A stretch of 39,866 nucleotides of DNA from a virus, in the IMG/VR virus record IMGVR_UViG_3300044956_000756, positions 1 to 39,866 of that record; one strand, given 5' to 3'. The notes below the pieces were generated by a model. It did not search any database, was not told the DNA's origin, and worked only from the letters and a program-made list of their open reading frames with translations. The number at the start of each line of letters is the position of its first letter. Position 1 is the first letter of the stretch. Below are positions 22,666 through 37,815 of this stretch, one piece after another. Both the position numbers and the translations under genes were made by a program.

Positions 22666-23721
22666 TTACAGGCTTTCTTCCAAGACTCGCGCCACTTTCG
22701 CGCCACCGAAACCCACTTTTTCGCCGATCACATCAGCGGCGCGGGCGGCCGTGTCGAGGTTCTTTTCCAGGTAGCCCATCGTGGTGGCGTGGCTCTTGTG
22801 GCGCATGACCCGTTGGATCGTCTGGATCGGCACGCCGGCCTCGGACAGGAGCGTGGCGAACGTGCCGCGCAGCCGGTGCGGCGTGATGCCCTTGAGCGAA
22901 CATTCCTTGTTGGCCCGGCGCATGGCCTGGCGCGCGAACCCGGGGGCGAAGGCTTGGCCGCTCGGCTTGGCCACGATCAGGCCATCCACCTGGCGCAGCG
23001 GCGCGAGGTGCTCGCGCAACCAGGCCGGCATCGGTACCGGCTCGGCCTCCCTACCCTTCGTGATGCCCGGAGTGTAGGTCGAGCGCTCCCAGTCCATCCA
23101 TTCCCAGCGCGCCGACGCCGCCTCGCTCTCGCGCAGGCCCAGCCCGAACATCAGACGCACCGCCGTGCCGACGTCCGGCGCCCGGGCCGTTGCCGCGTCG
23201 ACGGCATCGAACCAGGTCCTGGCTACGTCGATCGGCAGGAAGGGCCGCGGCTTCTTCTGCACCTTGAGCATCTTCACGCGCCAGGGCGACGCCGCCAGAA
23301 TCTCGCGCTTCACCGCCCACATGGTCAGCAGCTTCAGGATCCGCAGCCAGTGGTTCGCGCTCGATGGGGCGTGCGTCTCGAGGTGCCGGCCGCGCGCCAG
23401 CTCGACATCCTTCGTTGTGATCTCGCCGATCGGCTTGGCGCCCAGGTCGTACATGTGCAGCCGGCGGAACGTCTCGACGCTGCGGATGTGCGAAGCGCTG
23501 GCTACTGGCCTGTGGACAACTACCCACATGCCGGCCAGCTCGTCCAGCGTAGGCACCGGCTCGCCACCATTGGCGCGCACCACCGCGGCGTCGTACTGCC
23601 GCTTGGCGATTTCCTCTGCCTTGGTCTTGCTGGCCAGCCGGGTGCTGCGCTGCACGCGCACTCCGTCGACCTGGAAGCGGAAGTGCCAGATGCCGCTCTT
23701 CTTGAAGAGGGTCGCGCTCAT
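22666..23721 (-). CDS. Second tyrosine recombinase, in the replication operon
   Basis: A 351-aa phage integrase-family protein with all catalytic residues in place: Arg197 (GLRESE), Lys222, His282 and Arg285 (HRLRGTF), His308 (RHKSH) and Tyr317 (MGYLEK). An N-terminal arm-type domain and a SAM-like core-binding domain precede them. It begins by an ATGA overlap with the helicase gene and so is co-expressed with replication genes, far from either att site. It is not related closely to the attR-side integrase. It could resolve replication products or be the remnant integrase of another phage lineage. Confidence 0.9.
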   Translation of the reverse strand: MSATLFKKSGIWHFRFQVDGVRVQRSTRLASKTKAEEIAKRQYDAAVVRANGGEPVPTLDELAGMWVVVHRPVASASHIRSVETFRRLHMYDLGAKPIGEITTKDVELARGRHLETHAPSSANHWLRILKLLTMWAVKREILAASPWRVKMLKVQKKPRPFLPIDVARTWFDAVDAATARAPDVGTAVRLMFGLGLRESEAASARWEWMDWERSTYTPGITKGREAEPVPMPAWLREHLAPLRQVDGLIVAKPSGQAFAPGFARQAMRRANKECSLKGITPHRLRGTFATLLSEAGVPIQTIQRVMRHKSHATTMGYLEKNLDTAARAADVIGEKVGFGGAKVARVLEESL

Positions 23722-25076
23722 AGGTGGGCCGCCAGTCCACGGCCGCCGCGGCGCTGCTCCTGCTTCGCCGGCGGCGCCCAGCTACGGTCGAGGCTCGCGA
23801 AGCGAACCTGTTCACCGATGTACTGCAGTGCTACGCGGCCGGGCTTACCCTGCCGGCACAGTGCCACGTCAACCTCACATACCCCGACATCCATGGTGTC
23901 GGGGTTGTAGACCTCGTCGCGGTACAGGAAGATCACCGCATCGGCATCCTGCTCGATCGAGCCGGAGTCGCGCAGGTCGGACGGGATCGGACGCTTGTTC
24001 GGCCGCTCTTCCAATTTCCGGTTCAGCTGGGACAGCAGGATGATGGCGATATCGAGCTCCTTGGCCAGCCCCTTCAGGCCACGCGTGATCCCTTCGATCT
24101 GCGCGTTCCGGTTGTCACCATCGCCTTCCATCAGCTGCAAGTAGTCGAGGATCAGCAGCTTGAGGCCGTGCTTGCGTTTGACGGCTTTCGCATCCATACG
24201 CACGTCGAGCAAGCGCTGGCCGGCCTTGTCGTCCAAGTAAAGCTGCAACGAACTGATCTTGACCGTCGCATGGGTGAGCCCCGCCCAATCCTCGTTCCCC
24301 ATTTCCAAGGGTTCGAGCAGGTGCTGCAGCGGGATCCGGCCCAAGGTGGCCAGGTTCCGGTCGTGCAGCTGCGATTTAGGCATTTCCATCGACTTAATCA
24401 GGACCGGCTCGGTTTCCGCCACATTGCAGCCAATATTGAGTGCAAGTGCAGTCTTGCCCATCTTCGGACGACCAGCCAGCACTATCAGGTCACCGCCACG
24501 CAGACCGCCGCTAAGCCTTTGGTCAAGCGCCGGATAGCCTGTCGATATCGCCTTGCTGTTGCCGTCCATTCGGCGCTCGATCTCTTGGACGTGCGCGGTC
24601 AGCTCGTCGGCAGCACGCACAGGTTCGGTCCTCGTGCGGGCCCGGGCCAGCTTCTCAAGGACCGACGACGCCTGGTCGACCAGCGCAGTCGCCTCGTCCG
24701 GCGAGTTGGCCGCGGCTTCCGCGATCTCCCGACCGTAACGGATCAGGCCGCGCTTGATGGCCTTGTCGCGCACGATCGCCGCATGACGGCCAATGTGCGC
24801 GGACGACGGTGCCGACTGGGCCATCTCGTTCAGGTACCGCATGCAGTCCGGCACCTTGGCGCCGAGCGCATCGCCGAGCGAGACGACGTCGCAGCTGCGG
24901 CCGGCGGCCAGGTGCTGCATCAGCTCGCGGAAGATCAATGCGTGGTCGGCCAGGTAGAAGTGCTCGGCGCGCAGGTCGGCGATGCGGTCCACAGCGTCGT
25001 TGTCGCGCAGCAGCGCACCGATGACGCCCTGCTCTGCCTCGACGCTGTGCGGTGGTGGTTTGATGTCGTTGCTCAT
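23718..25076 (-). CDS. DnaB-like replicative helicase
   Basis: The 452-aa protein has the DnaB N-terminal domain (PPHSVEAEQGVIGALL), a linker, and a RecA-type core with Walker A GRPKMGKT (residues 202-209), Walker B LLILDYLQLM and the downstream LSQLNR and DLRDSGSIEQDAD motifs. It unwinds phage DNA at the fork, replacing the host helicase, as P22 gp12 does. ATG 25076 overlaps the stop of the replication-initiator gene (ATGA). The C-terminus is Gln/Arg-rich. Confidence 0.93.
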   Translation of the reverse strand: MSNDIKPPPHSVEAEQGVIGALLRDNDAVDRIADLRAEHFYLADHALIFRELMQHLAAGRSCDVVSLGDALGAKVPDCMRYLNEMAQSAPSSAHIGRHAAIVRDKAIKRGLIRYGREIAEAAANSPDEATALVDQASSVLEKLARARTRTEPVRAADELTAHVQEIERRMDGNSKAISTGYPALDQRLSGGLRGGDLIVLAGRPKMGKTALALNIGCNVAETEPVLIKSMEMPKSQLHDRNLATLGRIPLQHLLEPLEMGNEDWAGLTHATVKISSLQLYLDDKAGQRLLDVRMDAKAVKRKHGLKLLILDYLQLMEGDGDNRNAQIEGITRGLKGLAKELDIAIILLSQLNRKLEERPNKRPIPSDLRDSGSIEQDADAVIFLYRDEVYNPDTMDVGVCEVDVALCRQGKPGRVALQYIGEQVRFASLDRSWAPPAKQEQRRGGRGLAAHL

Positions 25077-26089
25077 GCTGCATCTTTCGATTCGAAGATT
25101 TTCTGGGCCTGCTTGCCCAGCGTGGTGAGGAAGTAGGCGCCGTTGCCGTCGATCGCCCACAGCTTCAGGTAGTTACCCTCGACGTACTTGCGGAAGGCCT
25201 GGCGCCAGTCCTTGTAGCGCTTCGTCTCGCCGGTGCCACCAGGGAGGAAACGGCGCCGGAACTCCACCCAGGCCAGGGCAATGAAGTCCTGCGGCAGGCC
25301 GGCGCTCTCGGCATAGCGCCACAGCGGAGCGTAGTCGCGCAGCGGCCTCTCGCCCTTCGTGGTGCAGTCCTCCAGGAAGGTCTGCAGGGCAACCGCCCCA
25401 GCTTTCGACCTGGTCGGCTGGGGGCCCCCGTCAGGGGGTTTGGGGGAAGTTGTTAACTGTCCCTGTCCCTCTCCCTGTCCCTTGGATGTGTTTTCACTAG
25501 GGACAACGCCGACTTGTCCCTCTAGTTGCCGAGCCGTGTCACCTGAAACAGACTCGCCTTGTCCCAGCGACATCATTGGTTTGTCGCCAGGGACAGGTAG
25601 CGGTTGTCCCACGGGACAGCCCGCAGCGAACCACGCATCGAACTCGGGGAACGGAACGTTTGCACCAGGATGTCGCTCGTTGTGCTTCTTGATCCGCGAG
25701 CATTCGGTCTTCAGGCGCTGGCGGAGTTTGGCCAGCCAGGCCTCGTTCGCCTTTCCGGCGACGACAGTGTGATAGAGGCGGCCGTCCGAGCACTTCACCC
25801 ACCCGCGCAGCGCGCCGGCCCGCACCTTCTGCCATTCCTTTACCACGCGGCCGTAACCCGCGTACTGCGCCAGGATCTTGTCGTCGTCTGGGAGACTTGC
25901 GGCCGGTACCTGGTGCCAGGATGCGCACCACAGCAGCACCGCGCAGCGGAACTCGTCGGCTTCGGAGGTCACGGACAGGTCGCTGTCGCGCAAGCGCACG
26001 ACGTCGAGCGGCATGAAGGCAAAGTCCTGCAGGTTGCAGTCGACTGGGGTGAGCGGTGCTGGCAGCGTCGTCAAGTCAGGCGCCTTCAT
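25073..26089 (-). CDS. DUF1376-type replication initiator candidate
   Basis: The 338-aa product has an N-terminal DUF1376-like part (FAFMPLDVVRLRDSDL, EFRCAVLLWCASW, then a Lys/Arg-rich segment), a low-complexity Gly/Gln/Pro middle and a C-terminal part with a KRYKDWRQAFRKYV helix, typical of phage replication proteins placed just upstream of a helicase. It takes the position of lambda O or P22 gp18. The low-complexity middle coincides with a cluster of TGTCCC/GGGACA hexamers. Initiator function is inferred from position. Confidence 0.75.
   Translation of the reverse strand: MKAPDLTTLPAPLTPVDCNLQDFAFMPLDVVRLRDSDLSVTSEADEFRCAVLLWCASWHQVPAASLPDDDKILAQYAGYGRVVKEWQKVRAGALRGWVKCSDGRLYHTVVAGKANEAWLAKLRQRLKTECSRIKKHNERHPGANVPFPEFDAWFAAGCPVGQPLPVPGDKPMMSLGQGESVSGDTARQLEGQVGVVPSENTSKGQGEGQGQLTTSPKPPDGGPQPTRSKAGAVALQTFLEDCTTKGERPLRDYAPLWRYAESAGLPQDFIALAWVEFRRRFLPGGTGETKRYKDWRQAFRKYVEGNYLKLWAIDGNGAYFLTTLGKQAQKIFESKDAA
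25458..25618. repeat. Cluster of nine TGTCCC/GGGACA hexamers, possible phage origin
   Basis: TGTCCC occurs at 25458, 25464, 25476, 25515, 25560 and 25605; its complement GGGACA at 25500, 25590 and 25613: nine copies in 161 bases. Two of them form a near-palindrome CTAGGGACAA-N7-TTGTCCCTCTAG (25497-25525). The cluster lies inside the putative initiator gene, as lambda ori lies inside O. An alternative is a slippage-derived repeat that only encodes a flexible linker. Confidence 0.5.
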
Positions 26090-26487
26090 GCTGCTGCCTG
26101 CTGAATCGAACCGAAGAGCGCGGCGACCGTCCAGTCGCGATGACGGAACGCAGGCCAGCTACTCACAATCGCCTGGTGCGGCACGTGCACGCGAAGGTCC
26201 GCGCGCGGGAGCTCTCGAGCGAGCTCGATCGGCACGGCGGTTGATGCACCAGGCGCCGGGCCGTGATGCCACATGTAGCATTTTCCCTGGTATTTCTCCA
26301 GCCGGACTCGAACACGGTGTGCGCGGCCTTCGCTCTCGAGGCGCTCGAGGCGTAGCCGAACCATGGACGGCGAGCATCCTAATTCGCGCGCCAGCTCGTC
26401 AACCAGGTGTGAGGAGGATTGAAGCGATTTTTCGATGGCCGAGAGCAGTTGCTCGGCCGGCAATTTGTTTTCGGTCGGGGGCGTCAT
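26086..26487 (-). CDS. Winged-helix type DNA-binding protein, 133 aa
   Basis: Residues about 10-60 form a winged-helix pattern (LLSAIEKSLQSSSHLVDELA, then a recognition helix SPSMVRLRLERLESEG and a basic wing). The C-terminal half is not recognised. ATG 26487 is preferred; upstream codons overlap the tiny gene at 26484-26564. It is joined by ATGA to the replication-initiator gene, so it may control or assist early replication. Confidence 0.7.
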   Translation of the reverse strand: MTPPTENKLPAEQLLSAIEKSLQSSSHLVDELARELGCSPSMVRLRLERLESEGRAHRVRVRLEKYQGKCYMWHHGPAPGASTAVPIELARELPRADLRVHVPHQAIVSSWPAFRHRDWTVAALFGSIQQAAA

Positions 26488-26564
26488 GGTGGCGAGACCT
26501 CCACGCACGGGCCACCGGCCGCCGTGTGACAGCTGGGCTGGTGAAAAATGGTTACCTGGTTCAT
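26484..26564 (-). CDS. Tiny tightly coupled early gene, 26 aa
   Basis: ATG 26564 shares one base with the previous stop (TGATG) and has GGAGG a few bases upstream. Its stop overlaps the next ATG as ATGA. The product is neutral, with two Cys and two His residues (HQPSC, PCVEV). Coupling on both sides suggests real translation, if only as a ribosome relay. The function is unknown. Confidence 0.45.
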   Translation of the reverse strand: MNQVTIFHQPSCHTAAGGPCVEVSPP

Positions 26565-26746
26565 CAGCGCTCCTCCGCGATGTCGACGGCCCGGCGCAGA
26601 TCCTGGCGGGCACGGTACTCGGCGCGCTGCTTGGTCACGTCGCCGCGGTGGGCGATCGCTTCCTTGTCGGCTTTGCGCCAGATGACGGCCTGCCGGCAGA
26701 TGTGCTGCTGGTCGTGCTGTGAAGGCTCGGTTGCCTGTTCGTTCAT
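26564..26746 (-). CDS. Small early protein, 60 aa
   Basis: A Gln/Arg-rich, charged helical product (MNEQATEPSQHDQQ start, ending DLRRAVDIAEER). ATG 26746 is preferred over ATG 26761 because TGAGG lies at good distance before it. It lies in the cro-led operon between two other short genes. No family is recognised. Confidence 0.55.
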   Translation of the reverse strand: MNEQATEPSQHDQQHICRQAVIWRKADKEAIAHRGDVTKQRAEYRARQDLRRAVDIAEER

Positions 26747-26794
26747 TGGTGTGTACCTCATGATGCTGCGGTGTGAATCGTCCATGCGCCGGCC

Positions 26795-27052
26795 TCAAAG
26801 ACGCATGCGCAGCTGGCCGCCTGCGCCGTAGTTCAGGCGGCCGGGCAGCGACAGGGCCATGTTCTGGCCATGTCCGGCCCTTCCTGGATACGACTGCTGA
26901 CGTTTACGCTTCTGCTCTGCGATCCAGGCTTTTGCAAGGGTGCGGAGCTGGGAGCTGTGCTTGACGTCGGCGGCGCCGCATTCTTGGTCGAACTCGACGA
27001 ACTCGTCGGCGTTCAGCAGGGCCTTGACGGGGATATTGCGGGGGGACTTCAT
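26795..27052 (-). CDS. Small basic early protein, 85 aa
   Basis: ATG 27052 follows a clear AGGAG site. Residues 1-50 (MKSPRNIPVKALLNADEFVEFDQEC, then SSQLRTLAKAW) resemble short ribbon-helix-helix DNA-binding proteins, with a Lys/Arg-rich following segment. It is the first gene after cro in the leftward operon, the place of lambda cII. A regulatory role is likely but not certain. Confidence 0.65.
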   Translation of the reverse strand: MKSPRNIPVKALLNADEFVEFDQECGAADVKHSSQLRTLAKAWIAEQKRKRQQSYPGRAGHGQNMALSLPGRLNYGAGGQLRMRL

Positions 27053-27101
27053 GGGGTGGTTCTCCTAGTGGTGGCGTTTCAGGACTTCGGGTGGTTCAGG
27101 A

Positions 27102-27332
27102 TCAAGTGGTTGTAGCTGGGCGGTGGGTGGCCTCGTGGAACATGTCGGCGCAATCTTGAGGAGATACAGCGCCTCCGGTTTCGCGTTCAATCTGCAGGGC
27201 ATAGTCCAGGGTGACCCGGGTAATGCCACGCACCCACTGGCTAACGAGGCCTTGCGACGCCGGTGGGGCAAGCTTCGAGCCAAAGTCACTTTGACTTTGG
27301 CCAACATCCTTCAGGTATTTGTCGAGGTGCAT
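27102..27332 (-). CDS. Cro-like (YdaS/Cro-type) repressor
   Basis: The 76-aa protein has a helix-turn-helix (QSDFGSKLAPPASQGLVSQW) followed by the TLDYALQIERETGG segment of Cro/YdaS-type regulators. It is divergent from the cI gene and heads the replication operon, as cro does in lambda. ATG 27332 has AAGGGCGG upstream; a TTG start at 27356 would place the N-terminus in operator O1 and is less likely. It probably binds the operators at 27352-27394 and favours lytic growth. Confidence 0.82.
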   Translation of the reverse strand: MHLDKYLKDVGQSQSDFGSKLAPPASQGLVSQWVRGITRVTLDYALQIERETGGAVSPQDCADMFHEATHRPATTT

Positions 27333-27351
27333 GTCTTTGTCCGCCCTTATG

Positions 27352-27400
27352 AGCAATGCTCTTAAATTCAGGATTCTACAGTAATAGCAATGCTTTTCAA
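27352..27400 (-). promoter_or_regulatory. cro promoter with operators O1 and O2
   Basis: On the minus strand, TTGAAA (27400-27395) and TAGAAT (27378-27373) are spaced by 16 bases. Operator core AGCATTGCT (minus strand) lies at 27386-27394 in the spacer (O2) and again at 27352-27360 near the transcript start (O1), flanked by AT-rich arms. A repressor bound here would block leftward early transcription. No equally clear promoter for cI was found. Confidence 0.72.
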
Positions 27401-27441
27401 GATATGCAGCGTAAAAAAAGCCGTGCTAATAAAATGACCAG

Positions 27442-28209
27442 ATGAAACGACGAGAACTTACGGCTGAGGAGAGGGAAGAAGCTGAGCGCCTTGCGCAGGC
27501 TTGGGAGAAGTACCGTGCTGAGAACAAGGGAGCGACGCAAGCTTGGCTCGCCGCTGAAGCCGGCCTAGGAACCCAGGGAGCGGTCAGCCAGTACCTGCGA
27601 GGTGCGATTCCTCTTAACGTTGAGGCACTTGCCGCTATGTGTCGCGTCATGCAGGTGGACCCGAACGCCATCAGCCCGCGCCTGATGTCAATTGTTCTTA
27701 TGCCTCCAGCTGACCCAGGACCTGATGGAAACTATGGGCTGCCCCCTGGCACCTTCATGAAGGTACGTGTCGTGGACGAAGACGACCCGAGCATGGTGCG
27801 GATCCCAAAGGTTAGACTTCGCCTTTCAGCAGGGATCAATGGATTTGAAGTTGAGCCAGAGCGTTACGATGGCTCAACCACCATGGTGCCAGCTGACTGG
27901 ATGATGCGAAATGGATACTACAAGGACAACCTGATTTCGATTGTCGTGAAGGGCGAAAGCATGGAGCCAACCTTGTACGAGGGAGACTTGGTTGTCATTA
28001 ACACAGCCGATAAAAAAATGGTCGACGGGTATGTCTATGCATTCAATTACGAAGGCGAACCGGTAGTAAAGCGCCTAGAGCGCGACGGCGGTCAGTGGTG
28101 GTTAAAATCCGACAATCAAGATCAACGGAAATACGGTAGAAAGATGTGTCGTGGCGATGCGTGTCTCATTATTGGACGCGTTGTTAGGAAGGAAAGTGAA
28201 AGGCTTTAA
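27442..28209 (+). CDS. CI-like phage repressor with S24 peptidase domain
   Basis: A 255-aa repressor with an N-terminal helix-turn-helix (WLAAEAGLGTQGAVSQYLRG, about residues 35-54) and a C-terminal LexA/S24 domain. The self-cleavage site is Ala130-Gly131, the catalytic Ser173 (GESMEPT) and Lys210 (VVKRL). RecA-stimulated self-cleavage would induce the prophage on DNA damage. The ATG at 27442 has no obvious ribosome site. The gene leads a three-gene operon of somewhat lower GC than the flanking genes. Confidence 0.93.
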   Translation: MKRRELTAEEREEAERLAQAWEKYRAENKGATQAWLAAEAGLGTQGAVSQYLRGAIPLNVEALAAMCRVMQVDPNAISPRLMSIVLMPPADPGPDGNYGLPPGTFMKVRVVDEDDPSMVRIPKVRLRLSAGINGFEVEPERYDGSTTMVPADWMMRNGYYKDNLISIVVKGESMEPTLYEGDLVVINTADKKMVDGYVYAFNYEGEPVVKRLERDGGQWWLKSDNQDQRKYGRKMCRGDACLIIGRVVRKESERL

Positions 28210-28478
28210 TGCTGTATTCGGAATTACGTTTGCGCGATGTACGCATGGCAGTAGTGTTGGTGGATAACGGGCAGCTTTACGACGACGGGCTAATCGCAAA
28301 GTTACAAACCCAACTTGCCATGCCAGTGATGCTGGTGACGCGTAATGAGTCGAACCTGACAGGTGCGAGTGCTAAGGCACAGTTTGATGCGGAGCCATAT
28401 TTATACGCGTTCCTCGCGTTAGACGAGATTGATTGGCTAGAGCTACCTGAACAAGAAGAATCTGAACTACCTTTTTGA
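28209..28478 (+). CDS. Unknown 89-aa protein directly after cI
   Basis: ATG 28209 shares a base with the cI stop (TAATG), so it is translated with the repressor and made in the lysogen. The product has a mixed alpha/beta pattern (MAVVLVDNGQLYDDGLIAKLQ, PVMLVTRNE) and an acidic C-terminus. I do not recognise the family. Its location corresponds to rexA in lambda. Confidence 0.78.
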   Translation: MLYSELRLRDVRMAVVLVDNGQLYDDGLIAKLQTQLAMPVMLVTRNESNLTGASAKAQFDAEPYLYAFLALDEIDWLELPEQEESELPF

Positions 28479-28488
28479 TGGAGTAACT

Positions 28489-29079
28489 GTGAATCTCTTT
28501 GAAGGCGCGAGACGGATCGCTTTAGTCATTTCAGCGATAGCAGTGATAGGCACCGTTGCAGGAGCATTTATTAATAAGCCTTATGTCGTCGCGAAATATC
28601 GAGTAGCTGACTTCAATGCGCCTGCCGTAAAGAGTGAGGAATGCAGGATTTCAACGGATAAAGTCCAGTACGAGACACTTCAAACTCCATCCGGAATCAC
28701 CTATAACCTCAACCTTTGTTTTGCTGGGCAGTTCTGGGAGAAGGAAAAAGAATACTTCATTCCCTACAAGCAGACACCCGACGGCGTTTGGGGCACATCA
28801 AAGTATTCCACTGAAGCGCAAGAATATGTTGATAATTATGTTCAATATATATTCAAGCTCTCCCCCACCGATTTCGCGGAAATAGAAGAAGAATATTCCT
28901 CGAAAAAGTGGTTCGAGGTAGGTCATGCGATAGGCTATTTACTTGGAGGCCTCGCCATATTCTGGACCCTCGTTTGGACTATTGGGTGGATCGTTCGCGG
29001 CTTCATGGGTATCCCTCGAGGCCAGGATCGACGCGCTGCCACGAACCCATCAACGGCCACCACTGTGGCTACAAACTAG
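28489..29079 (+). CDS. Two-segment membrane protein in rex-like position
   Basis: The 196-aa product starts at GTG 28489 and has hydrophobic segments at about residues 9-30 and 144-170, with a soluble loop of about 110 residues containing two Cys. It follows the repressor operon and precedes a strong terminator, so it should be expressed during lysogeny. Location matches rexB of lambda, a membrane exclusion protein, but no sequence similarity is claimed. Superinfection exclusion is a hypothesis. Confidence 0.78.
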   Translation: MNLFEGARRIALVISAIAVIGTVAGAFINKPYVVAKYRVADFNAPAVKSEECRISTDKVQYETLQTPSGITYNLNLCFAGQFWEKEKEYFIPYKQTPDGVWGTSKYSTEAQEYVDNYVQYIFKLSPTDFAEIEEEYSSKKWFEVGHAIGYLLGGLAIFWTLVWTIGWIVRGFMGIPRGQDRRAATNPSTATTVATN

Positions 29080-29099
29080 CAGCAGAATTCATCAGTCTC

Positions 29100-29124
29100 A
29101 AGCCCGCCTCGTGCGGGCTTTTTT
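29100..29124 (+). terminator. Terminator of the cI operon
   Basis: AAGCCCGC and GCGGGCTT (about 29100-29120) form a stem with a 5-base loop followed by a T run to 29124. It separates lysogenic transcription from the PRTRC operon promoter. Confidence 0.9.
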
Positions 29125-29188
29125 GCATTCTAGCAACAGTCTCATCGTGCACCTAGACACGAGGCCAGCAGAAACCCACAAAAATATA

Positions 29189-29227
29189 AGCATTGCTCTT
29201 GATCTTTTTAAAAGCATAGCTAATAAT
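29189..29227 (+). promoter_or_regulatory. pL-like promoter of the PRTRC operon, operators O3 and O4
   Basis: TTGATC (29199-29204) and AATAAT (29222-29227, spacing 17) form a plausible promoter. AGCATTGCT (29189-29197, O3) abuts the -35 element and AGCATAGCT (29213-29221, O4, one mismatch) abuts the -10. Both have AT-rich arms like O1 and O2 at the cro promoter. This strongly suggests repression by CI or Cro, equivalent to lambda oL/pL. Confidence 0.72.
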
Positions 29228-29276
29228 GAGCTCCATCATCCCAGCTCGTCTTGCGAGCCAACGAATGGAGCCCACC

Positions 29277-29426
29277 GTGAAACCCTTCCTGATCAAAGTC
29301 CGTACTGCCACCGCCTGCTTCACGTTTAGCGCCCTCGCGGCGTCCAGCACTGCCGCTGCAGTCCTGACGGCTGAAGTGCTGGGCGACCAGGCCTACGGCA
29401 TCACCGTCGTCGCCGGAGTGCGCTGA
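29277..29426 (+). CDS. Small first gene of the PRTRC operon, 49 aa
   Basis: GTG 29277 is favoured because ATGGAG lies 6-7 bases upstream; in-frame ATG 29265 and 29226 are alternatives. The product begins MKPFLIKVRTATACFTF and has a small-residue-rich helix (LAASSTAAAVLTAE) and a C-terminal strand. Similar short proteins occur near PRTRC genes as far as I recall. Its stop overlaps the next ATG. It does not look like an arginine-rich N-type antiterminator. Confidence 0.62.
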   Translation: MKPFLIKVRTATACFTFSALAASSTAAAVLTAEVLGDQAYGITVVAGVR

Positions 29427-29626
29427 TGGCCACTACTACCCAACTCACCCGCGTGATCGCCCTCGCCGTTCAGGACGCCACCGCGCAGCACCCGAACGAC
29501 GTTGAGCGCCGCGCTACCACCTTCACGCAGATGCTCTGCGGCGCGCTGCAGGGCCTCGACTACCCCGATGCGGCCAAGGCGATCCGGGTCATGCTGGGTG
29601 CCCGCGCGCCCGCCGACGGAGCCTGA
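29426..29626 (+). CDS. Small PRTRC-operon protein, 66 aa
   Basis: ATG 29426 overlaps the preceding stop (TGATG). The product is helical (LTRVIALAVQDATAQHP, DAAKAIRVML) and has no recognised domain. Coupled position between the first gene and the next short gene argues for real expression. Confidence 0.62.
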   Translation: MATTTQLTRVIALAVQDATAQHPNDVERRATTFTQMLCGALQGLDYPDAAKAIRVMLGARAPADGA

Positions 29627-29627
29627 C

Positions 29628-29819
29628 ATGGCCCGCGTCGAACCGGATCGCGCAGCGCTCGAGTTTGCCCGCCACCTCCTGGGCTCGAAGGACTCGCTCG
29701 ACACCATGCTCAAGAACCCGACGCTCAAGGCGGCGCTGACCGCCGCGGCCCGCCGGCACATGTGGCGCCGTGCCCAGTTCGACCCGAAGAAGCTCCAGGC
29801 CAACGACCACGACGATTAA
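29628..29819 (+). CDS. Small basic PRTRC-operon protein, 63 aa
   Basis: ATG 29628 follows the previous stop by one base. The product is charged and helical (RAALEFARHLLGSKDSLDTML, then RRHMWRRAQFDPKKL). It has no recognised domain. It lies 40 bases before PRTRC gene E. It stands where other PRTRC cassettes may carry parB but is far too short to be ParB. Confidence 0.62.
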   Translation: MARVEPDRAALEFARHLLGSKDSLDTMLKNPTLKAALTAAARRHMWRRAQFDPKKLQANDHDD

Positions 29820-29859
29820 CCACCGCCCTCCCCGGGCACCCAACCACGAGGACCACTCT

Positions 29860-30552
29860 ATGTTCAGCACCCTCCATGAGCTCGCGAAGCAGGCGACGCT
29901 GATGATCACCGTCGCCGCCGAGGGCGACGACCAGCTGCGCGTCAACGTGACGCCGATGCCGTTCGACACGAAGGCGAAGTCGAAGCTGCCGCAGCCGCTG
30001 TCGCTGCTGGCCACGCCGACCGAGTTCGATGCCGACTTCATCGCGGCGCTGTCGACCTGGCAGGCGCCGAAGCGCACGCTGATCCAACAGGCCCAGGATG
30101 CCGCCGGCGGCGCGCCCGCCGCTTCGGCGCCGGCCCTGCCCGCGCCGAAGGCTGAAGCCAAGACCGACAGCAAGACGGACAAGCCGCGCAAGGCCCGCGC
30201 AGGCAAAGGCGGCGACGACGACAAGAGAGGCGACGCTGTACCGGCTGCAGCCGCTGCCGCCGGCGAGGCCGCCGCTGCGGCCGACCAGGTGATGGACGCA
30301 ACGGCTCAACCGGGTACCGGCGAGCAGCCGGTGGCAGGCGGCGACGATGCGGGCACCGCCACCAGCGCCGCCGATGTGCCGGATCAGGATTCCCAGCCAA
30401 CCGCCGGCGCCGGCGGTGACGTCCCGGCCGGCGAGGCGCAGGACGGCGCAGCACCTGCGGGCGAGCCTGTCGCCGCGGCCGCTGGCGAACCTGCCGCCGA
30501 CGCTCCCACAGGCGACGAGGCGGTGGACAAGTTCACCCTGGACCTGTTCTAA
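29860..30552 (+). CDS. PRTRC system protein E
   Basis: The 230-aa product matches PRTRC-E: an N-terminal conserved domain (MFSTLHELAKQATLMITV, LPQPLSLLATPTEFD, about residues 1-80), a long Ala/Pro/Gly/Asp-rich middle and the conserved C-terminal end DKFTLDLF. The first conserved Met is used; an earlier frame extension is a shadow of the preceding gene. PRTRC-E has no known biochemical role. The low-complexity middle suggests a flexible linker. Confidence 0.85.
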   Translation: MFSTLHELAKQATLMITVAAEGDDQLRVNVTPMPFDTKAKSKLPQPLSLLATPTEFDADFIAALSTWQAPKRTLIQQAQDAAGGAPAASAPALPAPKAEAKTDSKTDKPRKARAGKGGDDDKRGDAVPAAAAAAGEAAAAADQVMDATAQPGTGEQPVAGGDDAGTATSAADVPDQDSQPTAGAGGDVPAGEAQDGAAPAGEPVAAAAGEPAADAPTGDEAVDKFTLDLF

Positions 30553-30564
30553 GCGGAGGCCGAC

Positions 30565-30966
30565 ATGCAAATTGACAACCTCATCCGCGAATTCCGCTAC
30601 AACGGCGTGGCCCTGGCCGACCCGAGCGCGGCGCTCAGCCTGCCCCAGGTGCGCGACTTCTACGCCAACGTCTACCCGGAGATCACCAGCGCCGATATCG
30701 AGGGGCCGGAACAGGTCGGCGCCAAGGCCATCTACACCTTCCGGCGCGCCGTCGGCACGAAGGGTGCAGGCGCGCGAGAGGCCGCACTGCTGCGCCTGCG
30801 CACCGTTGGCCGCCTGGACCCAGGCGCCAGGCCGGCCCACATCATCACCGCCGAGCAGGCGCGCGCCCCACTGGCCCAGCAGCTGGCCAAGATCCTCGAG
30901 CAGGCACGGCGCGCCACCGGCCCGCGTTGCCTCGCCCCATCCGTCAACCAGGTGGTCCTGCCGTGA
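30565..30966 (+). CDS. PRTRC system protein C, ubiquitin-like, with long tail
   Basis: Residues 1-67 match the PRTRC-C / prokaryotic ubiquitin-like family: EFRYNGVALADPSAALS, VRDFYANVYPEI, then YTFRRAVGTKG ending at Gly67. Many family members, as I recall, end at or near this glycine; here a further 66 basic, Arg/Ala-rich residues follow. Together with the E1-, E2- and JAB-like genes this suggests a ubiquitin-like modifier, possibly made as a precursor. ATG 30565 has GGAGG upstream. The stop overlaps the next GTG start. Confidence 0.85.
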   Translation: MQIDNLIREFRYNGVALADPSAALSLPQVRDFYANVYPEITSADIEGPEQVGAKAIYTFRRAVGTKGAGAREAALLRLRTVGRLDPGARPAHIITAEQARAPLAQQLAKILEQARRATGPRCLAPSVNQVVLP

Positions 30967-32030
30967 CTGCGATGCTGCCCGCCTCCATCCTGGCCCTGCC
31001 GGCGCTCGCGCCCGAAGTTCCGGCGCAGTACGTCCTCCCAGGCGAGGACCAGCTGGCAGTGCCGCTGACGATCGCCCTGCTCGAGGCCGGCGTGATCAGC
31101 GATGCCATGCTCCGCACGCCGCGCAACGAGCTGCTGGTGGATGTGTTTGGTGCCCAAGAGAAGCGGCTGGCCGAGCGCGCGCTCGCGCACTGGTGGACGA
31201 AGCTGATTCGCGCGCGGCCGTGCAAGTTCTTCCGCTGGGAACTGCACGTACAGCAGTTAGAGGACACCGGCCACGGCTACGACAAGACGAACACGGCCTG
31301 GTTCTGCTTCACGCGCATGGGACTCGGCAACAACTACCCGCCGCGGTTCGCCCTGGCGAAAGGCGTCGAGAAGCTCGAGCGCCTGCTGGAAGGCTTCGGG
31401 CAGACCGTGCTGGCGGTCTTGTACGACGCCTGCCGGCTCCTGCCAGATGCGCAAACGCCATGGTCTGCAGTGAGCTGGGCGCAATACGGCTACTGGAACG
31501 ACAGCAGCGACGACGTAGAGCTGCTCGAGAATCGCCGGATCGACGGCGGCTGGGACACCGTCCAGCAGCTGGTGGAGAACGAACAAGTCATAACCCGAGC
31601 GATGTTCTTCGCCGAGATGCCCGAGTGGGTATGCGCACCGAAGCGCGTACGGTCGCGCGTCGAGCTCGAGGCGGCGTCCACGACGGCATTCGCGCGCCAG
31701 GTGGTCGAGGTGTGCGATGGCCTGCACGCCCTGGTCAACAGCGCCGCTTTCATCCTCACGCCAGCCGACAAGGGAACCTATCGATGCGGCCGCGAGACGA
31801 TCGACGGCGCCATGATCCTGCTGTGGAAACAGTTCGATGTCGTCGGCGACACGATCGACGACTATCTCAACGACCTCGGCAACTGCGGCGAGTACTGCGA
31901 CTTCATCGATGCCAACCCGGTGCCGATGACCGCGGCCGGCATCCGCGACTTCATGACCAAGACCGAGCAGGCGATCCAGGTCGCCGTGCTGACCGAAAAG
32001 CTTGTTCTGCTGCTGGGAGATGAATTTTGA
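30963..32030 (+). CDS. PRTRC system protein F
   Basis: The 355-aa product matches PRTRC-F: DQLAVPLTIALLEAGVI, WWTKLIRARPCKFFRW, and WSAVSWAQYGYWND motifs. GTG 30963 overlaps the stop of gene C (GTGA), so translation is coupled; ATG 30972 is an alternative. The protein is soluble and has no recognised catalytic motif. Its conservation in PRTRC cassettes suggests a required but unknown part of the system. Confidence 0.85.
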   Translation: MTAMLPASILALPALAPEVPAQYVLPGEDQLAVPLTIALLEAGVISDAMLRTPRNELLVDVFGAQEKRLAERALAHWWTKLIRARPCKFFRWELHVQQLEDTGHGYDKTNTAWFCFTRMGLGNNYPPRFALAKGVEKLERLLEGFGQTVLAVLYDACRLLPDAQTPWSAVSWAQYGYWNDSSDDVELLENRRIDGGWDTVQQLVENEQVITRAMFFAEMPEWVCAPKRVRSRVELEAASTTAFARQVVEVCDGLHALVNSAAFILTPADKGTYRCGRETIDGAMILLWKQFDVVGDTIDDYLNDLGNCGEYCDFIDANPVPMTAAGIRDFMTKTEQAIQVAVLTEKLVLLLGDEF

Positions 32031-32770
32031 GCCTGCACACCGTGAAAATCGTGAGCGAAGGCGAGCGCGTCCTGCGCCTGGTCGGCGCCGTGCTGATGTA
32101 CCAGTCGAACGTCGGCGACGTCTACGCAACCTCGCACCCAGTCCTGTCGGACGCCGTGCACCCGGGCCGCCAGGTGATCGGCGCCGGCGTGCCGCTGTCG
32201 AAGGGCGCGCTGGCGAACTTCGCGAATGCCGTCGGCGCCGCTACGGCCTTCACCGGTTTCCTGCCGGACAACCTGCTGTTCAGCTCGCCGAACGTGATCG
32301 CCTGGTGGACGCCGGCCGCGGTGCGGATGACTTGGTTCAAGGCAGCAAGGGACAGCAAGCTGGAAGGCAACGGCATGGCCGCGCACCCGGCGCTCGTGTT
32401 CGTGGCCACACCCAGCGACTGGTTCGTGTTCGCGCTGCGCGAGGACGCGCGCCCGGGGCCGCACACGCGCCTGTACCACTCCCCGCACTTCAACGTGTGG
32501 GACGGCGGCCGGATCTGCACCGGCAACGTGGAACTGCCGCCGACCTTCGGCGCGGAGGTGATCGACCGCTACGAGCGCGCCTTCTTCCGTAGCCATTTCA
32601 CGCACCCGAACCGCAACAACGCTGTGAAGTGCAAAGGCGGCATGCAGCAGCTCTGGCGCGCCCAGCTAGCCAGCGCCGACCCGGGCGCGATGCAGCGCGC
32701 GCTCGTTGCTTCAAAAGAAACCCTGCAGGAAGCGATCACCCGCATCGCCGCCCGCGCCACAACCAATTAA
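32027..32770 (+). CDS. PRTRC system protein B, E2-like
   Basis: The 247-aa product matches PRTRC-B, which belongs to the prokaryotic E2 family D as I recall it. The candidate catalytic cysteine is Cys164 (GGRICTGN), preceded by the HSPHFNVWDG segment expected around an E2 active site. It starts at TTG 32027 within the stop of F (TTGA). Such an E2-like protein would take a ubiquitin-like protein from an E1 and pass it to a target. Activity is inferred. Confidence 0.85.
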   Translation: MSLHTVKIVSEGERVLRLVGAVLMYQSNVGDVYATSHPVLSDAVHPGRQVIGAGVPLSKGALANFANAVGAATAFTGFLPDNLLFSSPNVIAWWTPAAVRMTWFKAARDSKLEGNGMAAHPALVFVATPSDWFVFALREDARPGPHTRLYHSPHFNVWDGGRICTGNVELPPTFGAEVIDRYERAFFRSHFTHPNRNNAVKCKGGMQQLWRAQLASADPGAMQRALVASKETLQEAITRIAARATTN

Positions 32771-32784
32771 TAGAAGAGGACGAC

Positions 32785-33558
32785 ATGAAAAAGCAAGAAT
32801 TTGCCAACCAGTTCAGCGAGCTGCTCGACATCACCCGCGCATCGTTCAACACCTTCCTCGAGACGGCTGAAGCCGTCCTGCGCGAGCAGCGCCCCCTGCC
32901 GCTGGCCGTCGACGAGGAAACCGCGCCGGCCGACCAGCTGCAGATGGACATGGCCCTGCTGGCCGCGGCGCCGATCGCCGCCGTGCCGCGCTACGCGCCA
33001 TTCCACCCGCTGCAGGAAAACGGCCACCGCTTCCTGCTGGCGTCCGACGGCCTGCACCTCGAGGTGCGTCGACCCTGGCTGCACTACATCCAGCCCCTGG
33101 CCAAGCACGCCGCCGTGGCCATCCCGTTCGGCGAGATGACGAAGAAGTGCGAGCTGGACTTCGGCAGCATCGGAAGCGCGCTGGACCTGATGAAGGAATT
33201 CGCTGCGAAGGCGAAGACGGACGCGCCGATCGAGGCCGCGGCCAGCCTGCTGTGGGACCACGTGAAGAAGTCTTGGCGGATCGAATACCCGAAGATCATC
33301 GGCAAGGCCACGACCGGCAGCATCCAGTACGAGCAGGTAGTGCCCGGCCCGGATGAGAGCCTGGCGATCGACCTGCACAGCCACGGGCACCTCGGCGCGT
33401 TCTTCAGCAGCACCGACAACGAGGACGACCGCGGCTCGGTGAAGATCGCCGGCGTGTTCGGCGACCTGGACAAGGATCAGCCGACGGTGGCGTTCCGCAT
33501 GTGCGTGCTCGGGCTCTACATCGACATCCCGGTGCCGGCGTCGAAGATCTTCGGGTGA
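32785..33558 (+). CDS. PRTRC system protein A, JAB/JAMM peptidase
   Basis: The 257-aa product has an N-terminal helical region and a C-terminal JAB domain with the complete zinc motif H-x-H-x7-S-x2-D: His198, His200, Ser208, Asp211. JAB/JAMM enzymes remove ubiquitin-like proteins or trim their precursors. ATG 32785 follows AGAGGA. It lies between the E2-like and E1-like genes. The intact motif favours a working metallopeptidase. Confidence 0.9.
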   Translation: MKKQEFANQFSELLDITRASFNTFLETAEAVLREQRPLPLAVDEETAPADQLQMDMALLAAAPIAAVPRYAPFHPLQENGHRFLLASDGLHLEVRRPWLHYIQPLAKHAAVAIPFGEMTKKCELDFGSIGSALDLMKEFAAKAKTDAPIEAAASLLWDHVKKSWRIEYPKIIGKATTGSIQYEQVVPGPDESLAIDLHSHGHLGAFFSSTDNEDDRGSVKIAGVFGDLDKDQPTVAFRMCVLGLYIDIPVPASKIFG

Positions 33559-33562
33559 TCGC

Positions 33563-34339
33563 ATGCCGCATATCACGCCCCCCACCATGCTGAGCCATAG
33601 GGTGCGAATCGCCCTGATCGGCTGCGGCGGCAACGGCTCGCAGATGCTCACCGGCCTGGCCAGGCTGAACCACGCCATCACGGCGCTGGGCCACCCTGGC
33701 CTGCACGTGAAGGTGTTCGACCCGGACACGGTCAGCGAGGCGAACATGGGCCGCCAGCTGTTCGGCGCCTTCGACGTCGGCGCGAGCAAGGCGCACGTGC
33801 TGGTCAACCGGATCAATGCCTTCTTTGGGTTGGACTGGGAGGCCGTGCACGACCGCTACAACGACAGCTCGATGCAGTTCGGCATGGCGATCGCGTGCGT
33901 CGACAGCGCCCGGGCCCGCCACGAGATCCACGCGAAGCTGCAGCGCTATGGCGTGCACTACCTGATGGACCTGGGTAACCGCGCGGCCGACGGCCAGGTC
34001 CTGTTCGGCGAGTTATTCACAGGCCGGGCCGGGCTGGGCGCGCCGGCGAACAGTGCGCCGCTGCCGAGCCCGTACGCCGTGCTGCCGGAGCTGGTCGACC
34101 TGCAGGCGGTCGAGGACGACACCCCCAGCTGCGGCCTGGCCGAGGCGCTCGAGCGGCAGGAGCTGTTCGTGAACCAGTCGATCGTGACGCCGGCGCTGTC
34201 GATCCTGTGGGAGTTCTTCCGCAAGGGGCAGCTGACCTGGCACGGCGCCTTCGTGAACCTGCGCACCGGCAGCATGCGTCCGCTGAACGTGCGCGAGCCG
34301 GCCAGGGCGCCGGCGGCGGATCTCCCGGCGGCCGCATGA
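33563..34339 (+). CDS. PRTRC system ThiF-type E1-like enzyme
   Basis: The 258-aa product is a ThiF/E1 superfamily protein: nucleotide loop GCGGNG (residues 20-25), acidic strand end VFDPD, the arginine-glutamine pair Arg64-Gln65, Lys76 and Asp114 of the adenylation site, and a candidate catalytic Cys190 (DDTPSCGL). It would adenylate the C-terminal glycine of a ubiquitin-like protein and form a thioester. Starts 5 bases after the JAB gene. Its stop overlaps the next ATG. Confidence 0.9.
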   Translation: MPHITPPTMLSHRVRIALIGCGGNGSQMLTGLARLNHAITALGHPGLHVKVFDPDTVSEANMGRQLFGAFDVGASKAHVLVNRINAFFGLDWEAVHDRYNDSSMQFGMAIACVDSARARHEIHAKLQRYGVHYLMDLGNRAADGQVLFGELFTGRAGLGAPANSAPLPSPYAVLPELVDLQAVEDDTPSCGLAEALERQELFVNQSIVTPALSILWEFFRKGQLTWHGAFVNLRTGSMRPLNVREPARAPAADLPAAA

Positions 34340-34530
34340 GCACGACGTTCGAACAGGCCCGCGCCCTGTACGGCAGCGACGAGCAGATGGCCCGGGCCTT
34401 GTTCGACCAGGTCGCAGTCCTGCGCCTCGACCTGCAGCTGCAGCAGGCGCTGCGCCGGCGCGCCGAGGAGCGGCTGGAGAAGAAGCCGACATGGACAAAA
34501 AAACGCAACAACGAGGAAACCGAGAAATGA
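34336..34530 (+). CDS. Small coiled-coil protein after ThiF, 64 aa
   Basis: ATG 34336 overlaps the ThiF stop (ATGA). The product is a single long helix with heptad leucines (LYGSDEQMARALFDQVAVLRLDLQ is broken by few turns) and a highly basic C-terminus (KKPTWTKKRNN). It could bind DNA or a partner. I recognise no family. It is co-translated with the PRTRC cassette. Confidence 0.62.
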   Translation: MSTTFEQARALYGSDEQMARALFDQVAVLRLDLQLQQALRRRAEERLEKKPTWTKKRNNEETEK

Positions 34531-35204
34531 TGAACACCACCACCGTAAAGACCTGGCGCGAGCGCCTCGGCTTCGGCCCAGACTTCCCGCTTCATGCGCC
34601 GACCGACGTCGAGCGGGCGATGGAAGCGGAAATTGCCGCGCTGCGCGCCGCCCCAAGCGCCTTGGATTACCGCGCGCAGGGCCGCGAGGAAGCACTGGCC
34701 GTCATCCTGGCCCAGAGCCCCGAGTCCCCGTTTGGAGATTGCATCGGATGGGGCACTTCTGGCGCGCCAGATGACGATGGCGATTCGTACTGGAAGGAAG
34801 ACAAGTTGCGCGCGCTCCTGCACATCGACGACAGCAAGCATGACGCATACGACCGCGCCGAGGCTGCGTACTACGACTCCATGGGCCGGAAAGAGGAAGC
34901 CGAGCGGATGATGCGGATGGTCGAGAGCGCCCCGCTGTTCAAGCCGCTGCATGACTTTTTGGCAAAGCAGGAATCCGTCGAAGCGTGGGAGCTGATGCGA
35001 ATGCTCCAGATCGCCGCTCATCCTTCGCCGGAGAATGGAGCAGTAGCTTCGTCGAACCTGACCACTGTGCCGTGCCCATGCTGCGGAGACAGCAGTGCCG
35101 TGGGCTGTGACGAGTGCGGCGGACAAGGCCGCATCATCGTGGATCGCCGAGACCTCGCAGCCATTGCCGCTACCCCGGCCTCCCAGCAGGAGACCGCCAA
35201 ATGA
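34527..35204 (+). CDS. Zinc-ribbon-containing hypothetical protein, 225 aa
   Basis: ATG 34527 overlaps the previous stop. The C-terminal part carries CPCCGDSS and, eight residues on, CDECGGQG, a DnaJ-like zinc knuckle with paired Cys-x2-Cys motifs (about residues 180-203). The rest is acidic and helical. Phage proteins with such a tail are common but of unknown function. Its stop overlaps the next start (ATGA). Confidence 0.68.
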   Translation: MMNTTTVKTWRERLGFGPDFPLHAPTDVERAMEAEIAALRAAPSALDYRAQGREEALAVILAQSPESPFGDCIGWGTSGAPDDDGDSYWKEDKLRALLHIDDSKHDAYDRAEAAYYDSMGRKEEAERMMRMVESAPLFKPLHDFLAKQESVEAWELMRMLQIAAHPSPENGAVASSNLTTVPCPCCGDSSAVGCDECGGQGRIIVDRRDLAAIAATPASQQETAK

Positions 35205-35554
35205 AAATGGCAAAAGCATCCGAAAAGGACATCGACGCCGCTGGCAACATGTTGTCCCTTCTCCACCAGATCGACCGGGGCGACTACCCGAACCTTGAGG
35301 AAAGCGCCGACGTACCGGACTGGTTCGACGAGGACAACTTCGACCACCTGCGCGCGTTCTACGACGCCGTAAAGGGCACGCTCGACCGCGCGCCGGGCTG
35401 GCCAGGGCGGATCATCGGCGGCATGTGCTACGTGATCCTGTACGAGAAAAATGAAATCGTTGACCCGGATTCGGACGTGATCGAGCTGCATCCGCGCCTA
35501 GTGCGTGCGCTGCAGTCCCAACAGGCCGAGACAGAAAAGGAGATCGCACCATGA
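35201..35554 (+). CDS. Acidic hypothetical phage protein, 117 aa
   Basis: Starting at ATG 35201, the product is acidic (DVPDWFDEDNFDHLRAFYD) with a conserved-looking PGWPGRIIGGMCYVIL segment. Similar short proteins appear in many phages from memory, without known function. It is coupled to the preceding zinc-ribbon gene and to the DUF4224 gene. Confidence 0.68.
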   Translation: MKMAKASEKDIDAAGNMLSLLHQIDRGDYPNLEESADVPDWFDEDNFDHLRAFYDAVKGTLDRAPGWPGRIIGGMCYVILYEKNEIVDPDSDVIELHPRLVRALQSQQAETEKEIAP

Positions 35555-35787
35555 GCGGATACCTTACAGCTGACGAGTTGGCCGAGCTGGTCGACTGCAA
35601 ACCGAACCAGCGCACCAGGATGGTCACCTGGCTTCGGCAAAGGAAGTGGAAATTTGAGGTGGGTTCAACCGGGCTTCCCAGGGTCGCGCGAGCCTACCAC
35701 GATAGGATGATGGGTATTACCGATGAGCCGAAACGACAAAAATATGCGGACGAACCGAACCTCAAAGCCTTCGCCGGCGCCCACTAA
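35551..35787 (+). CDS. DUF4224 protein, excisionase-like candidate
   Basis: The 78-aa product (MSGYLTADELAELVDCKPNQ start) fits DUF4224, small winged-helix or MerR-like proteins usually found directly before a phage integrase. The gene overlaps the integrase start by 65 bases. A role as excisionase or directionality factor is likely by position and fold; it is not demonstrated. Confidence 0.78.
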   Translation: MSGYLTADELAELVDCKPNQRTRMVTWLRQRKWKFEVGSTGLPRVARAYHDRMMGITDEPKRQKYADEPNLKAFAGAH

Positions 35788-37042: not shown

Positions 37043-37515
37043 GCATTGATTTCAAGGAATTCTTCGAATACCGCGACGGCAGTTTGTACTGGATCGCGCA
37101 CCCGACTGCAAAATATCTAATCGGGCGTAAAGCTGGTGGCTCCAACGGCAATGGCTACCTGGCGCTCCGGATTCTGCAAAAGTCGTACTACGTGCACCGG
37201 GTTATCTATGAAATGCATCATGGTGCAGTGCCGGAGCTTATCGACCACGCAGACGGCGATTTCCGCAATAACCGCATCGAAAATCTCAGACCAGCGACCA
37301 AGGCCGAGAACGCATACAACAGCAAAATTCCGGCGACTAACAGGTCAGGGATCAAAGGGGTGAGCAGAGAGAAGAGATACGGCAACTGGCGCGTTACCGT
37401 CAAGATAGACGGTAAACAAAAACACATTGGCGTGTTCCCAACGCTCGACCTTGCGAAGGCCGCCTATGAGCAGTTCACGCAGTCCGCGCACGGAGAATTC
37501 TTCCGCAAAAAATAG
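37039..37515 (+). CDS. HNH endonuclease with AP2 DNA-binding domain
   Basis: The 158-aa product has an HNH core (VHRVIYEMHHG, then IDHADGDFRNNRIENLR with His70 and Asn77/78) and a C-terminal AP2-type domain (SGIKGVSREKRYGNWRV, then GVFPTLDLAKAAYE). Many homing-type endonucleases have this architecture. ATG 37039 overlaps the integrase stop (ATGA). It is the last prophage gene before attR and its lower GC is noticeable. It could be a free-standing homing gene or have a role in packaging or excision. Confidence 0.88.
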   Translation: MSIDFKEFFEYRDGSLYWIAHPTAKYLIGRKAGGSNGNGYLALRILQKSYYVHRVIYEMHHGAVPELIDHADGDFRNNRIENLRPATKAENAYNSKIPATNRSGIKGVSREKRYGNWRVTVKIDGKQKHIGVFPTLDLAKAAYEQFTQSAHGEFFRKK

Positions 37516-37524
37516 ACAGAAATC

Positions 37525-37585
37525 TTACAACGGGTTTTTGCTCTCATAGCGGAAAACCGGCGCTGAAAATCGCAGCCCGTTGTAA
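37525..37585. repeat. Inverted repeat near attR (TTACAACGGG)
   Basis: TTACAACGGG (37525-37534) is mirrored by CCCGTTGTAA (37576-37585), a perfect 10-bp inverted repeat 41 bases apart, 53 bases before attR. Position suits integrase arm or excisionase sites; it lacks a T run typical of terminators. Confidence 0.6.
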
Positions 37586-37637
37586 CGGCCGAATCGCAAG
37601 GTCTTGATCTTGCAAGATAAATCATGGGTTCGCTGCT

Positions 37638-37690
37638 GGATTGTGATTCCTGTCGTCGTGGGTTCGAGTCCCATCAGCCACCCCAAGAAT
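37638..37690 (+). repeat. attR: attR core, 53-bp copy of tRNA-His 3' part
   Basis: Matches 931-983 except C at 37654 where attL has T947. The sequence upstream is not a tRNA 5' half, so this copy is a fragment and host sequence continues after it. Confidence 0.93.
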
Positions 37691-37705
37691 TCAGTAGCAA
37701 AAACG

Positions 37706-37744
37706 AAGGGTTACATGCTCGATGCAGGTAACCCTTTGTTTTTT
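37706..37744 (+). terminator. Host terminator of tRNA-His, now after attR
   Basis: AAGGGTTAC (37706-37714) pairs with GTAACCCTT (37728-37736) around a 13-base loop, followed by a T-rich tract to 37744. It was probably the original tRNA-His terminator before integration. Confidence 0.85.
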
Positions 37745-37759
37745 GAAGATCCTGATCTC

Positions 37760-37782: not shown

Positions 37783-37815
37783 ACGTCCACGGACTATCAG
37801 GCCTGAAGGAAAAAA

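Follow-up and report, generated by a model that had tools for sequence, protein, structure and literature searches.

Matched predicted operators at the cro/cI region and in front of a PRTRC ubiquitin-like operon in a lambda-type prophage

In the immunity region of phage lambda, cro and cI are divergent around a three-site oR, the last site of which lies at the repressor's own promoter; lambda oR3 overlies the -10 box of the cI promoter. The rex genes lie behind cI, an outward promoter (pL) has operators 24 bp apart at the -35 box and in the spacer, the repressor carries an S24 autocleavage domain, and int is distal. Heteroimmune lambdoid phages exchange such a block as a whole. The PRTRC system is described by the protein families TIGR03735 to TIGR03742, which include ubiquitin-like, E2-like, JAB-like and E1-like proteins. 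By titles and abstracts, none of the open-access literature on PRTRC is apparently on phages (subscription journals lie outside this scope, and priority is uncertain), and the available part of a 2006 survey of prokaryotic ubiquitin-like systems treats ubiquitin-like proteins of phages only for tail assembly. A lambda-type switch is a known design; a ubiquitin-like payload under such a switch appears to be unreported.

The window analyzed here, i.e., the whole IMG/VR record IMGVR_UViG_3300044956_000756 with its 39,866 bases, carries an integrated lambda-type prophage. A host tRNA-His gene ends in a repeat of ~53 bases, of which a near-identical second copy lies at about 37638-37690, and we read the stretches at 903-983 and 37638-37690 as attL and attR. 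The tRNA-His/repeat stretch matches the Burkholderia phages Magia and BgManors32. Leftward from 27332 run the Cro-like gene, a replication module (DUF1376/replication protein, DnaB helicase) and the late genes; a second gene of the phage integrase family (22666-23721, minus strand) lies within this leftward replication operon. Rightward from 27442 follow cI, two rex-position genes, a terminator, a promoter with operators, three small genes, PRTRC and the integrase. The features are as follows:

903-978: host tRNA-His gene
27102-27332, minus strand: Cro-like regulator (ATG at 27332) with a YdaS-type helix-turn-helix (HTH) and the putative recognition helix SQGLVSQWVRG (PHROG 35, E = 7.5e-8)
27373-27400, minus strand: predicted pR, TTGAAA-16-TAGAAT, for leftward transcription of the Cro-like gene
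27442-28209, plus strand: CI-like repressor (ATG at 27442) with an N-terminal HTH (TQGAVSQYLRG) and an S24 autocleavage domain (Pfam S24, E = 4.6e-20; PHROG 4, E = 1.5e-39)
28209-28478, plus strand: small gene in rex position, oriented like cI and kept with it in relatives
28489-29079, plus strand: membrane protein predicted from the translation, in rex position, oriented like cI
29100-29120, plus strand: intrinsic terminator of the cI transcript, AAGCCCGCCTCGTGCGGGCTT followed by a T run
29199-29227, plus strand: predicted pL-like promoter of the PRTRC operon, TTGATC-17-AATAAT
29265-29819, plus strand: three small genes heading the operon (starts at 29265, 29426 and 29628)
29860-30552, plus strand: PRTRC protein E (TIGR03741, E = 1.5e-18)
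30565-30966, plus strand: PRTRC protein C, ubiquitin-like, Prok_Ub (TIGR03738, E = 5.8e-28; PF14454, E = 5.6e-24)
30972-32030, plus strand: PRTRC protein F (TIGR03742, E = 1.2e-25)
32027-32770, plus strand: PRTRC protein B, E2-like, Prok-E2_D (PF14460, E = 4.6e-39; TIGR03737)
32785-33558, plus strand: PRTRC protein A, JAB-like (PF14464, DUF2016; TIGR03735)
33563-34339, plus strand: PRTRC ThiF, E1-like (TIGR03736, E = 7.4e-93)
35723-37042, plus strand: integrase of the tyrosine recombinase type, into which an HTH is inserted (E = 2.3e-6 for its profile match to lambda integrase)

A preliminary description of this DNA had likened its two operator regions to oR and oL of lambda, and the topology bears this out: cI is followed by two rex-position genes, a terminator and an outward promoter with two operators. 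Also as in lambda, cro and cI are divergent with three sites at oR, the last of them at the repressor's own promoter, the operators of the outward promoter are 24 bp apart at the -35 box and in the spacer, the repressor is of the autocleavable S24 type, and int is distal. Unlike in lambda, the sites in oR are 33 to 34 bp apart, only two clear oL sites are found (three in the related loci L033 and L035), and the pL operon is PRTRC instead of the lambda genes; the operator word and the HTH domains are unrelated in sequence to those of lambda. The distance between oR and oL is about 1.8 kb, compared with about 2.3 kb given for lambda in the available part of PMC5880393, and would allow looping by a CI octamer.

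In a profile search, CI matched lambda CI and LexA, and its cleavage residues (Ala130-Gly131, Ser173 and Lys210) are intact and invariant in the CI alignment. The family matched by the Cro-like protein, PHROG 35, is annotated as a transcriptional repressor; the match to Pfam YdaS_toxin (E = 8.8e-4) was under the cutoff. The -10 box TAATAA of cI lies ~10 bases before the ATG (27427-27442 region) without a ribosome-binding site and is kept in close relatives, suggesting that the cI mRNA is leaderless or nearly so, like that from lambda pRM. The gene at 28209-28478 overlaps the cI stop codon, and its protein, for which no family is known, travels with the C-terminal domain of the window CI in many relatives; it should be made in lysogens. 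The membrane protein encoded at 28489-29079 had no match in Pfam or PHROG.

The preliminary description had placed the word AGCATTGCT at 27352-27360, 27386-27394 and 29189-29197, and a copy with one mismatch, AGCATAGCT, at 29213-29221 (plus strand). All four were found again, the exact copies on the minus, minus and plus strands, respectively, and the record contains no exact copy besides these three. As also proposed there, both pairs overlap consensus promoters that point away from cI (minus strand, 27400-27373; plus strand, 29199-29227). A fifth site, at 27419-27427, was absent from that list; it covers the -10 box of cI, as oR3 does in lambda. The three oR sites form a direct repeat family with spacings of 34 and 33. 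We predict that the motif is an operator of the form AGC-N3-GCT with AT-rich flanks, its strongest form being AAGAGC...GCTCTT. The copy with one mismatch is among the two best sites because the operator really is AGC-N3-GCT, with the central three bases largely free. The sites, with their scores in the held-out model described below, are:

27352-27360, minus strand: oR site 3' of the pR -10 box, AGCATTGCT, full palindrome GAGCAATGCTC (score 26.3, rank 1)
27386-27394, minus strand: oR site in the pR spacer (score 24.2, rank 4)
27419-27427, plus strand: third, degenerate oR site, AGCCGTGCT, covering the -10 box of cI (TAATAA, 27427-27432) (score 18.9, rank 5)
29189-29197, plus strand: oL site 5' of the -35 box, AGCATTGCT (score 24.7, rank 3)
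29213-29221, plus strand: oL site in the pL spacer beside the -10 box, AGCATAGCT (score 25.7, rank 2)

Could the shared 9-mer be a coincidence of AT-rich promoter sequence, with no common regulator? The number of copies with one mismatch in the whole window is unremarkable (14, with 8.9 expected; 9 of 100 shuffles reached 14) and not significant alone. In first-order Markov models of the two gaps, at least two copies of AGCAWTGCT in the cro/cI gap had a P of 0.0001, and at least one exact copy in the 185-bp gap on the PRTRC side (29080-29264) had a P of 0.009. The oL words of the window are thus only mildly improbable by chance, the two words by themselves are suggestive but short of conclusive, and the case therefore rests on the comparison across phages. 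Three related phages (L055, L033 and L035) have a homologous Cro and AGC-N3-GCT sites in the cro/cI gap and behind cI. A symmetric weight model was built from 14 sites of these three phages only, with no sequence of the window in it. Its five best positions in the window were 27352, 29213, 29189, 27386 and 27419 (26.3, 25.7, 24.7, 24.2 and 18.9); the next position scored 13.6, and the best of 20 shuffles reached 16.8. Thus, the motif is not scattered over unrelated places in the window, and a coincidence would have to account for all five sites being picked by a model that had seen none of them. In addition, comparison of L055 with the window revealed an island of conservation that starts at 29180, past a nonhomologous stretch.

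When all relatives were searched for the literal word of the window, L033 and L055 alone had it at both places; in L035, an exact copy was present only on the PRTRC side. The first impression from this search, that the operators are poorly conserved, was rejected, as other phages carry other words. PRTRC-ThiF homologues were taken from 64 viral contigs and 20 contigs of bacterial genomes, and after removal of duplicates, 44 distinct loci with a recognizable cI and gaps on both sides remained. Palindromic patterns were scored jointly in the cro/cI gap and the cI-to-PRTRC gap of each locus. Throughout the 44 loci, the palindromic word is particular to the phage and recurs both at the cro/cI gap and before PRTRC, with at least 12 unrelated words among the loci. 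Examples are:

ATGCG-N4-CGCAT: L012 and L014
TAAACA-N3-TGTTTA: L013, L016, L019 and L066
TTAGC-N5-GCTAA: L017, L070 and L024
TCAAG-N4-CTTGA: L008 and L011
TACAA-N7-TTGTA: L006 and L015

The scores of the phages' own pairings summed to 791, compared with 462 ± 23 for permuted pairings (maximum, 569; none of 20,000 permutations reached 791). The own partner ranked first in 19 of the 44 loci and within the top three in 28, and the loci that outranked it were often phages with the same operator type. To control for base composition, we compared all other gaps of the same genome with the gap on the PRTRC side, which outscored every one of them in 36 of 41 loci. The match was absent from about eight of the 44 loci; in one of these, L020, the match can be seen by eye, the gap having been placed wrongly by the automatic procedure, and the mismatch in L009 looks like a problem of gap calling as well. 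Automatic gap calling was off in a few loci (L009, L035 and L047 were hand-corrected or omitted), and such errors lowered rather than raised the permutation statistic. This comparison of matched with mismatched pairings already refutes a coincidence, which we regard as hardly credible, and supports the shared-operator reading of the preliminary description: other repressors go with other words, matched at both places. A host regulator as the binder was rejected, since the operator word varies between phages. The PRTRC loci represent dozens of distinct phages or prophages, mostly of Burkholderiales where the host is known. With their many matched operator words, they are a natural library for repressor-operator specificity.

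A natural swap of the immunity block points in the same direction. The locus L010, from a sister phage, is 87% identical to the window DNA over 23271-27109 and 88% over 29259-34648 (98% for ThiF), whereas the segment in between, 27110-29258, which is exactly cro, oR, cI, the rex position and oL, does not align and is replaced. Along with the new repressor, both operator sets are switched to a TTAGG-type word, as expected for the block exchange of lambdoid phages. This swap would be hard to explain unless the PRTRC promoter has to match the repressor. A smaller exchange is seen in L001, whose CI (8781-9515) is 91% identical to the window CI from residue 97 and has a different N-terminal DNA-binding domain, a domain swap within cI that is accompanied by a different operator word.

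Despite the unrelated words, the geometry at oL is conserved, again at odds with coincidence. The operator centers lie about -6 and +18 from the start of the -35 box, ~24 bp apart; examples are (-6, 18), (-3.5, 18.5), (-6.5, 18.5), (-4, 20) and (-5.5, 19.5), and the ranges are 3.5 to 7 bases 5' of the -35 start and 15 to 20.5 bases 3' of it, in the spacer or over the -10 box. Roughly two thirds of the examined loci show this geometry; in the remainder (e.g., L017, L070, L024, L031, L006 and L015), the automatic promoter call was uninformative. A third oL operator, 24 bases past the second, is present in L033 (4064-4072) and L035 (4648-4656) and absent in the window and L055. The upstream site abuts the -35 box, its center 6 bases 5' of it, where some regulators can contact RNA polymerase, so that CI might activate the promoter and PRTRC might be a lysogenic (moron/defense) cassette, a role that would suit its relation, at the E1 domain, to E1-E2 antiphage systems. 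However, the second operator, at about +18 in most phages examined, lies inside the promoter, where a bound protein would block the polymerase, the -35 box is near consensus (TTGACA in many relatives) and not of the activator-dependent type, and PRTRC is kept in a phage without a recognizable cI. We therefore regard activation by CI as very unlikely and repression as the probable function of the oL sites.

Which of the two phage regulators would bind? Within one phage, the recognition helices of CI and Cro resemble each other, and from type to type they vary in concert: QGAVSQ and QGLVSQ in the window, TPQAVQQW in both proteins of L031 and KPPSVH in both of L010. Therefore, both probably read the same operators. 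This likeness would also suit a role for Cro alone or mainly at oL, with PRTRC turned down late in lytic growth and not fully silent in the lysogen, and so would the Burkholderia phage BgVeeders33 (B. gladioli isolate; OK665841, L092). Like the window, it has the six PRTRC subunits in the same order and a YdaS-type Cro; CII is also present. One operator word occurs three times beside cro (24612-24668) and twice, 25 bp apart, before PRTRC (24864-24905). Unlike in the window, no recognizable cI or integrase was found in this phage, which is possibly a natural cI deletion or nonlysogenic derivative, and a ligand other than CI must use the two operator clusters that it retains. On the other hand, co-variation tracks the whole immunity block, the two oL sites over the -35 flank and the spacer are ideal for repression by CI, and most relatives have a recognizable cI. 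Control by Cro alone or mainly is thus unlikely in our view, and direct repression by CI, with Cro as a probable second ligand, is preferred.

The six PRTRC subunits E, C, F, B, A and ThiF lie in one cluster and matched their models above the curated cutoffs. No protein of the cassette matched PRTRC ParB in NCBIfam, and PRTRC D was likewise not recognized; with six subunit models matched and none for ParB, this is therefore a PRTRC-type cassette without ParB. It differs from the known PRTRC system in lying in a temperate phage, under the predicted control of a phage repressor. The three small genes ahead of protein E, which had no family match in the profile libraries searched, could be the only ones driven by the operator promoter if PRTRC had an internal promoter. 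Against this, the intergenic gaps from 29265 to 34339 are at most 41 bp, a consensus scan of both strands over 29230-37800 found no promoter and no plus-strand terminator was found before 37760, and the operator promoter of other subclades, though its distance varies, is always upstream of the same cassette. An internal promoter of this kind, with the operator promoter serving the small genes only, is therefore quite unlikely, although a weak second one inside the operon may exist. On the same evidence, the integrase is probably the distal part of the PRTRC transcript. The cassette of the preliminary description thus keeps the operator promoter in front of it but is not stand-alone: with an operon that probably reaches the integrase, PRTRC sits in the position of the lambda pL operon. 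The integrase itself adjoins attR, and its HTH interrupts the catalytic region at residues about 298-340.

Taken as a whole, we consider it very probable that this is a CI-controlled lambda-type immunity region with PRTRC as the repressed early-lytic pL operon. From the sequence comparisons we conclude that PRTRC would be a direct target of repression by CI, and probably also by Cro, and hence an operon of the early lytic phase that is inducible by the SOS response. In the lysogenic state, CI dimers on the AGC-N3-GCT sites at oR would shut pR, CI on the site over the -10 box would tune the cI promoter, and CI on both oL operators would shut the PRTRC promoter, a repression that could be incomplete. 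DNA damage would lead to self-cleavage of CI through its S24 domain, and infection of a naive cell would begin without CI. By either route, the absence of CI would open both divergent promoters, and early in the lytic phase the cell would make the PRTRC proteins E, C, F, B, A and ThiF together with the downstream integrase. Cro would then probably occupy the same operators.

Such control would date PRTRC production to induction or infection and not to the quiet lysogen, which argues against a defense expressed by the lysogen and points to a lytic role. If BgVeeders33 cannot lysogenize, its retention of PRTRC also favors a lytic role. The fused E1-E2 protein of E1-E2 antiphage defense (PADLOC) was not found; ThiF gave a partial match to the E1 domain, and the other subunits gave none. 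We tentatively suggest, as a possibility with nearly as much for it as against it, that PRTRC serves these phages as a ubiquitin-like conjugation machine dedicated to early lytic growth, which loss of the lysogeny repressor turns on directly and which modifies proteins of the host or the phage during takeover, e.g., for counterdefense or replication. If true, PRTRC would differ here from the ubiquitin-like systems known in bacteria, whose role is defense of the host. With mitomycin C or removal of CI, there would be a simple switch to turn the cassette on and seek conjugates.

Four relatives with a related CI and no PRTRC (L001, L002, L004 and the Variovorax phage VarioGold) have matched operators, as judged by eye and unscored, before the same slot, with other genes inside. 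Therefore, the operator promoter belongs to the immunity module, with exchangeable payloads in the slot, and PRTRC is one among several possible pL-type operons. VarioGold (OP296522) resembles the window in its CI, which is 54% identical in the C-terminal part, and in its oR/oL layout, with operator words of the TAGC-N4-GCTA type that match between cro/cI and the region behind cI; unlike in the window, the slot is occupied not by PRTRC but by genes of replication and recombination type and one of the ParB family. The VarioGold paper does not use the word "operator" but reports induction of the phage by mitomycin C (PMC9658991), in support of SOS control for the repressor group to which the window CI belongs. 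In L004 (8184-8365) and L002 (11467-11665), a terminator and an operator promoter with a TTTATCA-type word precede a different gene set.
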